From: Echinarachnius parma
Lineage: Eukaryota; Echinodermata; Echinoidea; Clypeasteroida; Echinarachniidae
Assembly: GCA_037951105.1 (NCBI GenBank)
Contig: JBAMJV010002091.1
Span: 1 to 64,000 of the forward strand
Length of the DNA: 64,000 bases
Reading direction: 5' to 3'
The notes below the pieces were generated by a model. That model ran no database searches, was not told where the DNA came from, and saw only the letters and a list, made by a program, of their open reading frames with translations. A program made the translations under genes and the position numbers. This document shows, in pieces, positions 17,301 through 50,300 of the stretch (position 1 is its first letter; each line of letters starts with the position of its first letter).

Positions 17301-20300
17301 TCCAAAATGTAGAACCAAATACTACAGACTTTTTAATGTTTTTCTTTGGTAGGGTTCACCAGATTAAAGTTTTGAGCCACTACAATTGAAGATGGAAGCT
17401 TTGACTTTACTTGCCCATTTGGGTATATAATGGAGAGAACAAAAATCTTAGCATTGACCTATTGTCATATTTTCAACAATAATTTGAATATATACATGCA
17501 TGATGTTTACACTTACGTATACAATGCAACCGTACAATACAATGGGCATGGTCAAGTACTCTATTATGCATGCATGCACAGCAATGGCATCCAAGCAGTG
17601 GCTTCAAAGCAAGCGCTTGGCATGTTAGGGTTAATAAGGCAGAGGGAACCGGAGACAGAGGGAAGAAGAGAGAGGAAGAGAGGGGGGATGAGAGAATAGA
17701 AACCACATGGCACGGCCTTGGGTCTAAAGGCTAACTGCATCATCACAACCTTCTTTCACGGCTCCGGGTAGATGAAACATATTGGAACTTGTTCGTTCAA
17801 TGCCAAATCATTCTCTTTTTAGTACAGAATTGTCACTTATAATAATTTGAACATAAATGCATTGTCATATTGCTGGGGAAAAAAAGTTTAAAGGACCTAC
17901 AGAATACAACGTATGTTGACACTTGGGCAATTCCATAAATATGTCAACCAGGAGACCAACTTTTCAAAATGATCAAATTAAACTAAGTGAAACATCATAT
18001 TAAAGTTAAATGTATGAACTTTCAGAAAACAGTAGTTAAATATATTTTTACCCAAGGTCAAGGTCACAAGATCCTTTCAAAGTGAGGAAAAGAATTGATA
18101 CTTTCTTATCACTATGATGATGAATAATTAATTTTACTAAATATTTACATTATAAAAGGTGATGACAAATCATTGACAGTGATAGATTTGAAGATAATAA
18201 CCTAGTGAACAACAAATCTGAAGTAGAATTGAATTTGGCTCTTTTAATTATTTTTTATTGTAAATCAATGTCGACATTCTTTTGGTCGTGTACGTCCGTA
18301 ACGAAAAAACACATTATTTCAATTTTTCATGAAGACGAACAATTCAATAAAAATGAAAATGTTAATGCAAAGCAAGCACAAGACCCTCAACTAAAATAGT
18401 ACATTAGAGTTCTCCAATCAACACTAATTAAGTAATTATTTGATATACAAATGTGTACGTCCGTAACGTACGTCCGTAACGGAATCCACCCCCTCTTTGA
18501 CATTTCATGTGTTAATTCTACAACGCTCATAGGTATCGCTGTGCAGCTTCATGAGTTTTTTCATTGAAATATTACGCAACTTTTGAGACCAAATTTGCAA
18601 CGAACAGGTATACCGTTGCAAAGTCATGTGACCTTTTGTAAGTGAATGTCAGCTAAGAAATCCCAAATTTTGTGATTTGTGTACAAATCCTATGGAAATT
18701 AGGTAATTATAAGATTCACTTATAAACCCTTCATTTTTTTCCATTCTAATCATTGCCATTATTTAATTTTAGTCTAAAATTGATTGGACCATGGTCAATA
18801 ATCAATTTCATCGAAAAAAAAAATAAAAATAGAAAGTTGAAAAAACAATGAAATACATAAGAAATTCACAAAACAAGGAAATACAAAGAAACCATTATGG
18901 CTCTGGCAATTTTTTATGTTGGAAAATTATTAATTACCTACAGTATGTCAAAAAAGAATGTTTATGCATAAAACTAGTATACTTTCCAAGAAATAATTTG
19001 TGACCCATAGACTTTGCACTTGTACGTCCGTAACGGACACTTTGTACGTCCGTAACTGTACGTCCGTAACAAAGAAGCAGTCTAATTAATTCTTAATTAG
19101 AAGTGGAAATAAATTTTTTTTTTTGGTGATTCTCATCATTTGACATCTAAATGAAATGATAATGTATCATTTCAATGGAATGTATCTCACAATTCACAGA
19201 GTTTTACATTTTAAATTCAAATGTCAGAAAAATCACTTTCTCTGCGTACGTCCGTAACGGTGATGTTTTCAATTATTTCAAGGTCATAATGCTGATAATA
19301 TTGCATGCAAGTTTGCAATAATTGAACCCTCACTGAATGTCATACATATAGCACACTAGACCTCTTGAGTAATTCCCACACTGACTGGAATAGCTTATTA
19401 AAGTGTCTGAAATGTACGTCCGTAATTATGGAATTGCCCACTTATTCCATAGTTGATGACTTGAAACATAGGTATGCCGAAGAAAAATCCATGAAAATAA
19501 ACACAGTAGTGATTTAAGACTAGTTTCCTGATGCCAAATCTTACCTAGCAGCCAATTTACGCCCCACCCACATTTAGCGTCCGGAATAGGCAGCGTGATC
19601 GACGTGCGATTGACAATTCATTTGCTTACGTCATGACGCGTCATCTACAGAATTTAGTTCATTAGTCCGGTCTTTAGATGACGTCACATTTTGGCGATTT
19701 AAAAGGGGCGTTCCCAGGACAATAAGATATTTACTAATTACCCCAAAATTGATTGATTTCATGAGAAATGAATGCTAAATTCTTTTTCTTTGGGAAAAAT
19801 TACTTATAGAGAGCCGAATTGTGAAAATTAGGCCATCTAGACGCTGTAGTTCCTTTAACTGAAATTCAAATGGTTTGAATAATTGTTACATGCCAACATT
19901 ATTTTCTTACATCAACAGAATGAGTTGTCACTTATAATTGTAATCATGGAGCTAAAAATGTAACCATAGTTACATTAAACAAAAACAAACAATCTCACAA
20001 AGGAGCATGTCGACTTTAAGACAAATCATTAGTTTTGATACCTGCATAGAACATCACCAAATTGCCCCCCATCCACTGCAACCCCCCCCCCCCTCCTCCC
20101 GCCCATGTCAGCATTGGTTATCCGTTAACTGTGCGTGTTTTTGTTGGGTTTTTTTTTTTGTTGTTGGGGGGGGGGGGGGGGGGGGGTGAGTTACAGCCAA
20201 AACCCAAGTGCATGGTGGATTCACTCTTTAGTAGGTTAGATTCGTTTAAAAAGTTTAGTTTAAAGTGAGCAAGACAAAATAGTATATTAAGAAGATGTTG

Positions 20301-38300: not shown

Positions 38301-41300
38301 ATTTAAGTCCAACTTAAAGTTAAGTTCAACTTAGGATCTTTGTGAAACACCCCCCTGGGGGTGTATTCTGAAAACGATTTTATTGTATCTATGTCATATC
38401 TACGTCCCTAAAATATTACACTGTACTTTTAATAAGGAATAGCAATTTGCTAAAATATATTTTAGTGACGTAGATATGACGTAGATACAATACATTTTAA
38501 CTTCAGAATACACCCCCTGAACTTAGGATATTTCTTATTATTTGTCTTTAATTAGGCCCAAAAAAAAAATTTGTTGGACTGGAGTAACGGGCAACCAAAA
38601 ATTAGGGTAGGTAGGTGGGTTTTTTTTTTTTTTTTTTTTGCCAGGATTCGCACAAATACACAAAAACACACATACATGTATAACACACACATAACACATA
38701 TCGCAATTGGAAAAAGAAAACAAAATCAGAAAAAACCCTTTAGGGTCGGCGGTATTTTTAGGGTCGGGCGGGTTACGCCAATCCAACAATTTATTTTTCA
38801 TGGCCTTACGCAAGATTTACACTCATTGTGCAATATGCCAAGACTGACAAGATTGACAAGACTGACCTATAAAACCGAGACTGTTTGACCATCAAGAAAA
38901 CCTAAACTAGGATATTTCTTATTATTTGTCTCATAACTTGTCAGTATATTAATTAATTTATTCTTATTTGCCAGTCAGTAACTACAAACAAAATAAAAGC
39001 TTGTTGTACAATGCCAGCTCACATGTATTGACAAGACTGACCTATAAAACTGAGACTGTTTCACCGCAGCGACATGGTTACCATAGCAACGGAGGTATCA
39101 CCAGCAAGGCAGGGACTTCCTGTAACAGGTATAGATTACGTAGATTTGGCACACTTAGGCGAGACTTGGAACTCTTGGTTGTTTTCTTGGGCTAATCCAG
39201 GTGTGAAAGATAACACAATTTTGCAGAAAAACTCCACAGCAGGGTCTTATCATCCAAAACCACTAATTATGCACCATTGTTGAAAAAGTGTGTCTCCAGT
39301 GATCCTGCTCTTCTAGAGAAGAGATTTAATTTTACACCAGTAAAATTGTACTTTTATTTGATAGTGAGGGTCCTTCTCGTAAAAGTTACCTTAAATTCAA
39401 AGCGATTGAAAGTTAAATAAATAAATGCCAGGTGATGGAATATGGCTTAGGTACCAAAAACCCCATGTCCCCAAGACAAAATCGTTCAGTTTTTCCAGTT
39501 TTGTAGAAATATAAGAGTACAAAGGAGCAAAACAAGTGCGGTTTCACGACAGCAGCACAGTAATCTATGAAACATAATCAAAGTTTTAATGATCCCACTT
39601 CATTTAAAATTTTGATGGCCATTGGAAATGTGTCGCCAAATCTAGTGAAACATACGTTACCGTCATCTTACTAAATAAAGAGATATGCTTAGATGCTGAC
39701 ATCTGTACAGTTATCTTATTTTTCTAATGATGAGAACATGGCATACAAGTAAAAACATGTTTAAAAGTCAAGACACAAACGAAATGTGACTGGGAATATA
39801 AGAAAGAGACGGGATAAAAAGGTAGAGTTAAGAGGTGTAACATACGTTACCACAAATTTTAAATATAGGTAACCACTATGATGTAAATGATTATACTGGA
39901 GTTCAGGCCAATGAAGTAGATTGATATTACGCAGAAATGAAAATTAAGTTCAGCTAAATGTTGCTTATTCAACCAATTGAAGGTCACGAAAAATTTATGA
40001 GATGTAACATACGTTACCATGCGTAAAAAAATGTGTGTAGGATATACTTAATAACTATCTAAATTGGTCGCAAACTTGTTTACGCCATCTATATGTGGTT
40101 CAGGGTGAGCTTAGCAATCATTTTCAAGGCCAAAATTGTATTCAAACAACACTAATGTAACATACGTTACCATTTTGAAACATACGTTACGGCCAAATCA
40201 CATATCTTTGGGAATCGTTAACGGACGCCTGACTAGATGCGATGTTCACAAATATGTTTTAATGGTTTTATTAACACTTTGTTGTTTATTTTCATGATTG
40301 TAACCTTCAGTTACCAACTTTGAAACTAACTAGCCATCATGTGAAATGTTAGTGGTAACGTATGTTACACCTTTTTATCAAAATGAAGCACACAATTCTT
40401 GCACAGTAACATTACGTGCTAATTTTCTCGGAGTATATACTACCAAGTATGCACTTTAGATTGGCATTAAAATCAAACGTTTGGCAAGAACTTTATTTTT
40501 GACATTTTCTGACTATTCAGTTGTACATAATTAGTGGTTTTGAGCCTTATTCTCACACAGGATAGCACAGGTCTTGCGTGCTTTCCTTGACTAATCCATA
40601 ATATTGCGAAAGATAACACAATTTTGCAGAAAAACTCCACAGCAGGGACTTATTCTCACACAGGATAGCACAGGTCTTGCGTGCTTTCCTTGACTAATCC
40701 ATAATATTGCGAAAGATAACACAATTTTGCAGAAAAACTCCACAGCAGGGACTTATTCTCACACAGGATAGCACAGGTCTTGCGTGCTTTCCTTGACTAA
40801 TCCATAATATTGCGAAAGATAACACAATTTTGCAGAAAAACAATGTCATGGGGTAAATTTGTCTTCATAGCACGTATGATCTTACACCCCCTTCTCCTCA
40901 TTATTTCAATTATTAGCAAATTTGGCAGTGTGTTGTTTTTTTTATTAAAAGGTTTTCTTAGTTTTTTGCAGAGTCAGGTAGTACTTGGGTGTTTTTCTCC
41001 ACTAACCTAGGTGCGAAAGATAACACAATTTATCCCCGAAACAAAAATATGGGCTCAAACCAATCAGTCATCAGATAGCCTCATTCTCAATATTACAACT
41101 AGAGTATAGATTTCTTAGTTTTTCATTGAATATCAGAGGGCTAGGTGTTTTCCTTGAGTAATCCATAATAATGTGAAAGATAACACAATTTTGCAGAAAA
41201 ACATCAACATGGGCCAAATTTGTCTTCATAACACGTATGATCTTTCACATTATCATCTCTAGTCTTCAACATTTCAACAAGAAGGCTGGCAGTGAATTTG

Positions 41301-47300: not shown

Positions 47301-50300
47301 GCCTCGTTTGGTTGCCCGATTGGGCAATTGGTCAACTATGATGGAAAATGTAATTCCTTATGTGCAAATACATCTAGAGTAAGCGGTCTCAATAAAGTAA
47401 ATTTTCTGTCAGGGCAAGTAAAATGGGAAAAGTTATGATTTTACTTGCCCAAACGAGCCAGTAAAGAAAAAAGTTAGTGTGGAGGCTTGATGTCACACAT
47501 GTCAAAATCCACACTACTAACAGAGTTTAGTGTCCTTCAACTTGTTAACCTAGCGCCTGGCCTTAGGGGATACAAATGTCACATTGTCAACACCCCAATG
47601 TTCATGACATTATGATGAGAGCATTTAAGGTAGATCTCTTTTCAATGAATGTCTTCTGATATGTGTGTTTGTTGACCTTGGTACCGTCTGCAACCCATAA
47701 CCTGCAACCTCCTGATGTGTCGTGTCCTACTTGTCAAACCTGAACCCCACACTAACTAAAGTTACTAACAAAAGTTACTGACGTCATTTTACTAGTTAAC
47801 AAGTCTTAGGACGCTGCCATATGTGGCCGAGAGCACGATCATGACCCAGGACCAGCCTTAGCTTCACTGATCTTTAGATATGCTTGTGTAATTCTTTAAG
47901 GTTGAATGAGTAAGCCCGGATGTGTGCTCTGCTACGTTTTGTTGATTTGTATGTTATTCTAGCATATTGACATCGATGAGTTAGAGCCAATGATGCTAAT
48001 TACCATGGTAAATGTCGCTGGTCCATATTCGGGCTCTTGGGCCATGCATGGAATACAAGCATTATATTTTCAGCACCCCTATGTTCATGACATTATGATC
48101 AGAAGCTAGAGAATAGCATCATGTAGATCCTTGGAATGTTTTTGGTTTGTTTTCGTATTGCCTGTAACCCCATACATATAACCTTCAAACATGTCCTACA
48201 CGTCAAAACCTTTATCAGTATGTATAAAGTTAAGTGTCCTGCTATTAGTTAACTTACAACTTCAGACCTGCCCTATGGATATAAACGTCACATTGTCAGT
48301 ACCCGCGTTCATGATGTTATGATTCGTAGCTAGATGATAGCATCAGGTAGATACATTTCAAAGGAACATTTTGATATCTGTGTTTGTTTGCTTTGGTAGG
48401 CCTACTGTCTGTAAGTCTGTAACCGATCACCTGTATAAACCTTGTTACGTGTCCCACATATCGGTCTGATTTTTAACTTACAAAGGAGAACGCAGCCCAC
48501 TGGGATACAAACGTCACATTGTGGCCTATATTCATGACATCATGGTTAGTACTAGTAGCTGGATGCTAGATAGATCTGTTTCAAGAATGATTTGAGATTG
48601 ATGTTTGTTGGGTTATATCTTTCCCATGGTTAACCTTTTAAAGTGTCATGTTGGACAAAATCAGTGTTTGGTAGTCTGATGGCCAAATGATAATCATTTG
48701 GGTTTGATTTATATAGCGCCTAATATGTAACATGAATGAGGGTGTGTAATATTAAAGCATGAGTGCACTATAAAGTAGCACCTGCTGGAATACTCCCCAG
48801 GGAGTGGAGAGAGTGCACAATAAAGTGCGGAAGTGTATCCAATGGTCAAGTTATAAATGATAATAATGTTAGATGCAGGTCCCTCTGGGAGAACAGAGCA
48901 AAAGGGCACAGAAGAGGCTATTAAACCTGGATAAATAAGGACTACAAAAATAAAACCAGCATCATCCCTAAGCAAATTACACTATTATTACCTCAGACAT
49001 AGGACATAATGCCAGCCTGCACATGCTGTGTCCATCTCCACTCCCTGGGGAACATTCCTTCCAGGTGGCTCATGGGCATTGAAAAGATTGTTCATACAAA
49101 GTCTTTCACCACCTACTGGGTCCCTACTTTAATATAACCATCTAGAGACATGGATTTTCCGCGATCGCGGAAAATCGCGGAAAATCGCGGAATTGACCAT
49201 TTGAAACGGAAAATGAGTTCTCAAACGGAAAATCGCGGAAAACCTCTTTTTCCTCAAAAATTCATATTTTGTAGTAGAAAACTATCAGAAGAAAACAAAT
49301 GACAAAAAAGTACAAGAAAGACGATGTCGAATGCAACTTACAACGACAAGAAATCCGCTCTAGCGCGCGGTGCGGCGAGTACGATCGACTAGACTAGCTA
49401 CCCCGGCGCGCCCCGCACAGTCACGCAGCTGCTTTGTGTCACCCGTACGTGTATCACACTACACACATACTGTACGTAATACCAAAGATGGTAGAGCGCC
49501 TCAACGATTCTCAAACGTTGACATCGAGTCCGCCCTCTATCGGCAATTATGCGCGATCGCGCACACGTGTATAACAATACTTCCGCGTTCCTTCCGGGGT
49601 ATACTACGGCTTTGGTAATGGTACGGAATTCGATTACGACACGACGTCGCACGCTGATAGTGATAGGTATGAAAGCTTGAAGTTGAAGCGAGAGAAAATC
49701 GGTAAGTTTTCACAATAAATACCTATATTATTGAATAGCCTAACTACTCTCTGGCCTGTCGTAAGTCATTTCTGATATCAGGCATGACACATTCCCCCAA
49801 ATTTGGATGATTTGTGGGTGAAAATAATGATTTTACCATACTCATTGAATTTTGTATACGTTTGATGGTAAACGGAATTTGCAGTTTTTCACATGTACAA
49901 AGTCTATGGCAAAACGGAATTTCCGTTTTTCAGGCAGGCAAAAACGGAATTCCCGATTTTGTGAAACGGAAAAGGCCTTTTTTTGAAACGGAAAATCCGT
50001 GTCCCTAACCATCTACAAATGCAATGTGCAAACACTATTTGTTTTCAAACTCAAGATCCCATGATTGGAGAGCGCTCTTCCAATCTTGCTATTAGATCCA
50101 TTTCAAATAATATTTTGATACTGCCGTTTGTTAGTTCTGTGCTACCTTTTGTACATGCCTGTGTATACCTACTGTACGTGGCAGAAGATATGTTGTTTTG
50201 AAATAGATTCAACTGTGCCATACATATTTTTTTTATATGTCTGTAAGCAGGTACGTTTGTTTGTATTCATTGTCTGTTAATCTGTTACCCGTGACCTTCT

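Follow-up and report, generated by a model that had tools for sequence, protein, structure and literature searches.

The window, that is, the whole analysed stretch of 64,000 nucleotides of Echinarachnius parma DNA, contains at 17925..19439 a gene-less copy of a cut-and-paste DNA transposon. A first, sequence-only reading had described 14-bp inverted ends at this place, a possible ACTT duplication and eight 13-mers in one orientation, which were confined to the right three quarters of the element and of which one was fused with the right end. All these features were recovered: both inverted repeats are exact, the ACTT stands on both sides, and the first 365 bp of the element are free of 13-mers. 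The parts of the element are listed below (position, strand, feature).

17921..17924, no strand: left target-site duplication ACTT, seen in the window and by read-through of the joined flanks with one ACTT
17925..19439, +: non-autonomous DNA transposon, 1515 bp, with the same ends in all 15 copies whose two ends were read
17925..17938, +: left terminal inverted repeat GGGCAATTCCATAA, exact, 14 bp
17925..18480, +: left end region, common to a 5279-bp transposase-bearing copy (79% identity); its right limit is that of 13-mer 3, the innermost on the left
18290..18302, +: 13-mer 1, exact
18455..18467, +: 13-mer 2, exact
18468..18480, +: 13-mer 3, exact, head-to-tail with 13-mer 2
18481..19016, +: filler, 536 bp, unmatched by blastn in the 5279-bp copy, free of 13-mers
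19017..19439, +: right end region, common to the 5279-bp copy (85% identity); its left limit lies 5 bp ahead of 13-mer 4, the innermost on the right
19022..19034, +: 13-mer 4, exact
19044..19056, +: 13-mer 5, exact
19058..19070, +: 13-mer 6, exact
19246..19258, +: 13-mer 7, exact
19414..19426, +: 13-mer 8, ending in T; shares one base with the right inverted repeat
19426..19439, -: right terminal inverted repeat GGGCAATTCCATAA, exact, 14 bp
19440..19443, no strand: right target-site duplication ACTT, seen in the window and by read-through of the joined flanks

All eight 13-mers thus lie on the + strand, seven of them exact. Three form a left array, 366-556 bp from the left tip (span 191 bp), and five form a right array that extends over ~405 bp and ends near the right tip. 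The 13-mer is a near-palindrome, GTACG TCC GTAAC. Two pairs stand head-to-tail or one base apart, while most units are dispersed.

With up to two mismatches, the 13-mer was found nine times in the window, compared to a mean of 0.32 and a maximum of 3 in 100 shuffles. The ninth match (at 48411) is located outside the element. In the whole genome, 141+183 exact occurrences of the 13-mer were counted; a background of such occurrences exists, because the reversed control is also found 35+40 times. Nor is a recurring 10-mer in 4.5 kb rare by itself in this repeat-rich genome, as the top 10-mer count in 18 control chunks ranged from 2 to 10. The 13-mers are distinguished by their position, their conservation and their link to the ends, rather than by their recurrence. 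An ordinary satellite unrelated to the ends, the possibility that the sequence-only reading had set against its own proposal, is excluded: the motifs are dispersed, they go with the end regions, and the filler has none. The inverted repeat GGGCAATTCCATAA has eight further matches in the window, all with three mismatches, which is the chance level (10 found, 8.79 expected). An Rfam scan of the window gave nothing at gathering scores.

Copies and insertion sites in the genome

The search covered the 1.2 Gb assembly (14790 contigs). Exact matches to the 18-base right tip number 48, compared to none for its reversed control. When the whole element was used as query, 46 matches were obtained from the best 40 of 2051 candidates, which were scored; 26 of these matches, the window included, cover element positions 1-1515 at 90-100% identity. 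Pairs of ends and clusters of the 13-mer, both of which the sequence-only reading had proposed to look for, recur in the genome. In 15 copies (the window and 14 loci) both ends were read, and their boundaries are identical; differing boundaries were the other outcome that the sequence-only reading had set against its proposal.

The 4-bp duplication, which had been seen as possible at one site, recurs at the other insertions. Perfect duplications flank 14 of the 15 copies, corresponding to 13 of 14 distinct insertions; two loci (L011 and L021) have common flanks and represent the same AGAT insertion. The duplications comprise 11 different sequences: ACTT, AAAT, TATG, AGAT (twice), AGTA, ATAT (twice), AATT, AGCT (twice), ATTT, AATA and GTAT. 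Only L020, also read at both ends, is without a matching duplication. The flanks of the window element, joined with one ACTT, gave 40 scored matches (of 1555 candidates) and all 40 continue across the join (98-100% identity); in 39, the query and genome segments are equally long, hence without net gap. As the joined flanks match through the join, the element was inserted in another abundant repeat, of which the uninterrupted form is present. Judged from these genome sequences, the element has been mobile. Of its host repeat (17888-17924 and 19444-19569), the genome contains no fewer than 40 copies (98-100% identity).

When two mismatches were allowed, the right-end junction CGTCCGTAATTATGGAATTGCCC was found at 280 genome sites (control: 0): 46 without mismatch, 8 with one and 226 with two. 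The two-mismatch sites point to a larger, putative sister family. A gapped pattern retaining the motif core did not recover these two-mismatch right ends (>200).

The gene-bearing relative and the conservation of the motifs

A full-length relative with a transposase-like gene, which had been named as a check, is present on contig C2632 (L013, 3147-8425). This copy, 5279 bp long, shares its ends with the window element and is flanked by an ATAT duplication. Its eight 13-mers stand at matching places, in the same layout as in the window element, and an uninterrupted 697-aa frame lies between the two arrays. For the 697-aa protein, this copy is the only full-length match among 64 places scored. 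Three aspartates, D360, D442 and D483, are invariant in six aligned sister proteins, with the spacing D78-83D36-41D and in VDFxEN-, SDG- and HGKGxxDGxGG-like contexts. They form an apparent, putative catalytic triad, picked from six invariant acidic residues, as E363, E372 and D407 are likewise invariant. In two overlapping fragments on C428, dN/dS amounts to 0.215 (91 codons) and 0.242 (59 codons). A comparison of the transposase with Pfam, NCBIfam, PDB, IMG/VR and prokaryote genomes yielded no credible relative and a few sub-threshold matches only, and the six sister proteins have no Pfam match above cut-off.

The window element aligns to the 5279-bp copy in two main blocks, element positions 1-556 (79%) and 1093-1515 (85%). 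Three further matches are weak and correspond to second copies of sequence that carries motifs or belongs to the ends. A run of identity listed at 1066-1092 is an artefact of the gap between the two blocks and was disregarded. The first block runs exactly to the end of 13-mer 3, the innermost on the left, and the second sets in 5 bp ahead of 13-mer 4, the innermost on the right. As the homology stops at the innermost motifs, the gene-less form kept the stretches from tip to innermost motif.

Within these stretches, 1 of 103 motif positions is substituted relative to the 5279-bp copy, compared to 173 of 848 other end positions (Fisher p 9e-9); none of 20000 random placements was as conserved. 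The same can be observed among 14 other copies, although these were chosen by the presence of the 13-mer, with a possible bias toward motif conservation: substitutions amount to 11/1430 in motifs, 516/11463 in the other end sequence, 1/350 in tips and 261/7388 in the filler. Fifteen of 15 contigs up to C2632 from the element-DNA search are also in the 13-mer list. This reduces the bias of choice without removing it, since that search scored 40 of 2051 candidates and motif-less decayed copies may escape. In the gene-less copies, the ends minus motifs and tips are 4.5% substituted, compared to 3.5% for the filler, and are thus not better kept. By these counts, it is the motifs and tips that are kept selectively, and not the remainder of the ends. 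The CpGs of the motifs are kept in 232 of 253 cells, compared to 82 of 124 elsewhere in the element. From all sums L021 was left out, being the same insertion as L011, and from the 14-copy sum L013 as well; L024 contributes a right end only, and L014 is without both tips.

Gapped positions are distributed differently (motifs 86/1430, other ends 63/11463, filler 185/7388). Whole 13-mer units are missing in L010, L011, L015, L019 and L024 and part of one in L022, while L012 contains one extra unit and L020 one inverted 13-mer. Whole units are thus lost more easily than the rest of the end sequence, and none of the internal sites seems indispensable on its own.

Sister families, classification and proposed recognition of the ends

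Several families in the same genome are related to the 697-aa protein: C1699 (41%), C3306 (37%), a family with an 843-aa frame (~28%) and one with frames up to 894 aa (~29%, the 893 family). Five sister families have an uninterrupted transposase frame. Repeated 10-mers were counted in the flanks of the transposase genes without choosing a word beforehand. Four copies each were found of GTAACACCGGGAC in C1699, GTAACGGAATTAC in C3306 and AACATACGTTAC in the 893 family. In the 843 family, CAGATACGTTAC occurs nine times exactly in a joined C5374 stretch, plus once further downstream in L033; three two-mismatch matches were not counted, and two of the motifs lie within a 416-bp tandem duplication and are not independent. 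C3628 has three copies of GTAACACCCGTAAC under a looser count. No array was found in the flanks examined of C8225 (L044, L051) and C7241 (L047). Overall, the eight families inspected, the window family included, comprise five with a clear array, one with a weak array (C3628) and two without.

All family words contain GTWAC, as do ~1.9% of random 13-mers. The closest pairs of words are those of the window family (P0001) and C3306, of C1699 and C3628, and of 843 and 893, each alike at 10 positions. The 843 and 893 proteins are also the closest of their branch (36%). A co-divergence of word and transposase is suggested by these pairs but not established, because the P0001 word is nearest to that of C3306 while its protein is slightly nearer to C1699 (39%, compared to 35% for C3306). 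One direction of the motifs is not a general rule either, as L020 has an inverted 13-mer and the sister families mix orientations.

In the 843 family, the left end lies near L058:88 and the first motif ~396 bp inside, close to the 366 bp of the window element. Eleven of 13 loci (L031-L043) are without stops in the match, and the copies are 98-99.9% alike among the matches listed, suggesting that this family was recently active. A tRNA-Gly gene is predicted at L059 223-296, in a ~380-bp insert near the right end of a copy of this family on C5374.

The sequence-only reading did not recognise the family. By its ends, duplication, length and aspartates, it now most likely belongs to the Sola superfamily, and presumably to the group Sola2, which we assign from features of Sola2 transposases together with the AT-rich 4-bp duplications. 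Other superfamilies with 4-bp duplications are Chapaev, Ginger and Academ; for their transposase types the six sister proteins were compared through Pfam, where none has a match above its cut-off. piggyBac, Kolobok and Sola3 use a TTAA target site and are excluded, none of the 11 target sequences read being TTAA. hAT and P elements, with their 8-bp duplication, are excluded by the 4-bp duplications. hAT elements (Ac/Ds, Tgf2) resemble the window element in their subterminal repeats, which are bound by the transposase; the transposases themselves were compared only through the absence of a Pfam match.

Sola elements are described as having a DDD transposase, duplications of 4 bp, inverted repeats no shorter than 11 bp and a length of mostly 2-9 kb (PMC10741241). 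For Sola2, another report gives inverted repeats of 12-21 bp and AT-rich 4-bp duplications (PMC3627910). In the window family, the duplication is 4 bp long in 14 of 15 copies and at the joined flanks (40 of 40 scored), the inverted repeat measures 14 bp, and the gene-bearing copy has 5279 bp. The conserved aspartates of the sister proteins are compatible with a Sola DDD transposase, with E363, E372 and D407 invariant too. In the literature searched, mostly without subscription papers, no description of a subterminal motif array in Sola was found, nor anything on how Sola transposases recognise their ends; the three mentions of 'subterminal' sequences in PMC3627910 are about Helitrons. As a novelty for Sola, the array is therefore provisional.

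Arrays of this kind are known from other systems. In PMC2613891, CACTA elements (En/Spm, Tgmt*) are described with a short motif repeated in asymmetric subterminal arrays, which lie within short inverted ends; the motif differs between families, and the arrays are protein-bound cis-determinants of excision. The window family shares the asymmetric arrays within short inverted ends and the family-specific word. However, CACTA elements have CACTA tips, a 3-bp duplication, direct and inverted motifs and a separate TNPA-like protein (PMC2613891), while the window element has GGG tips, a 4-bp duplication and motifs in one orientation. CACTA (En/Spm) is excluded by the GGGCAA tips and the 4-bp duplications. 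Tn7-like elements, according to PMC13370975, have transposase sites that differ in number and spacing between the ends, for ordered end pairing, and the two ends of the window element differ in the same way. Tn7-like elements are, however, bacterial, use several transposition proteins and have 20-bp TnsB sites in the I-F3 element (PMC13370975), whereas here the left array starts 366 bp inside the tip, the right one covers ~405 bp and the genome is of eukaryotic size. A Tn7-like element with a TnsB-type transposase is excluded, as there was no Pfam or NCBIfam match above cut-off.

We consider it probable that the element is a non-autonomous Sola-type derivative and that its 13-mers are subterminal recognition sites for its transposase. 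An asymmetric transposase-binding array had already been suggested; the recurring end pairs, the gene-bearing relative and the recurring duplication support it, while binding by the transposase itself is inferred. The transposase with the apparent D-D-D active site, encoded by the 5279-bp copy, would cut at the 14-bp ends and insert the element with a 4-bp duplication. The 13-mer GTACGTCCGTAAC is its putative recognition word, and several transposase subunits would bind the 13-mers at each end. The left end would be distinguished from the right because the sites differ in number (three versus five) and in spacing, so that the asymmetry of the arrays may serve end recognition. Subsequently, the assembled complex would bring the two tips together, pairing the three-site left end with the five-site right end. 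The gene-less copy would have retained the stretches from tip to innermost site and lost the gene. As the word is near-palindromic, both of its directions could be bound by a dimer, and this would be in keeping with the mixed orientation in the sister families. Such a mechanism would most likely parallel the end pairing of Tn7-like elements (PMC13370975) and the use of CACTA subterminal repeats via TNPA (PMC2613891).

It is unlikely that the 13-mers instead bind a host transcription factor, as parts of a promoter, enhancer or insulator that were kept since expressed copies spread. Short CpG-containing near-palindromes do resemble ordinary factor sites, and in the 5279-bp copy the left cluster precedes the open frame. 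However, the gene-less copies retain the motifs at both ends, five motifs lie downstream of the gene with one joined to the inverted repeat, and the homology between the two forms stops at the innermost motif. The motifs have moreover diverged in the sister families, as would be expected of a co-evolving transposase and not of one host factor. A second element-encoded DNA-binding protein could also read the array, with the transposase reading the tips only. The En/Spm subterminal repeats are so described in PMC2613891, and spliced or small genes are possible in the 5279-bp copy; the transposase is, however, its only long frame, the longest frame that does not overlap it having 100 aa from stop to stop, and we regard this alternative as improbable. 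That the repeats are a functionless by-product of tandem expansion or gene conversion would agree with the close spacing of two pairs and the varying unit number, but is very improbable given that most units are dispersed, stand at the same places in copies ~20% diverged around them, show one changed base in 103 and are missing from the filler.

A wider rule can also be formulated: Sola-type transposases may read a family-specific end code, consisting of asymmetric dispersed arrays of a bipartite 12-14 bp GTWAC-based site, with site and transposase co-diverging. We put this forward tentatively, as a rule that could well hold but that we would not yet presume. It would be a eukaryotic single-protein counterpart of Tn7-style asymmetric end pairing, and minimal ends would be naturally marked where gene-less copies stop matching the gene-bearing copy. 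The gene-less copies suggest candidate minimal ends of 556 and 423 bp. As one genome has several families, each with its own word, the specificity of the sites is testable by swapping sites and proteins.

A second element in the window

The count of repeated 10-mers on the control chunks of the window also brought up a second transposon of the same kind, with the word of the 893 family.

39247-39250 and 40547-40550, both sides: TTAT duplication
39251..40546, +: second transposon, 1296 bp, with inverted ends, a 4-bp duplication and a AACATACGTTAC array
39649+, 39839+, 40006+, 40159+, 40179+ and 40355-: AACATACGTTAC array, span 39649-40366

A scan of the window for GTWAC-containing 10-mers that occur at least four times in 2 kb returned only the two elements. 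The inverted repeat of the second element is CAAAACCACTAATTATG. On contig C1708, AATT stands on both sides of intact GGCTCAAAACC tips; no clear duplication was found for the C738 copy. The right tip of the window copy is intact, and its first four left bases are CATC, differing from the tip on C1708, which we take as a presumably altered tip. Of the 39 other candidates scored, 24 match over a single stretch from close to the left bound to close to the right one. With up to one mismatch, 138 occurrences of the 21-base tip were counted in the genome (control: 0). The inverted repeat is also found paired ~3.8 kb apart, at C506:58911-62717, C588:304483-308227 and C908:136680-140486; these pairs appear to delimit a longer sister element.
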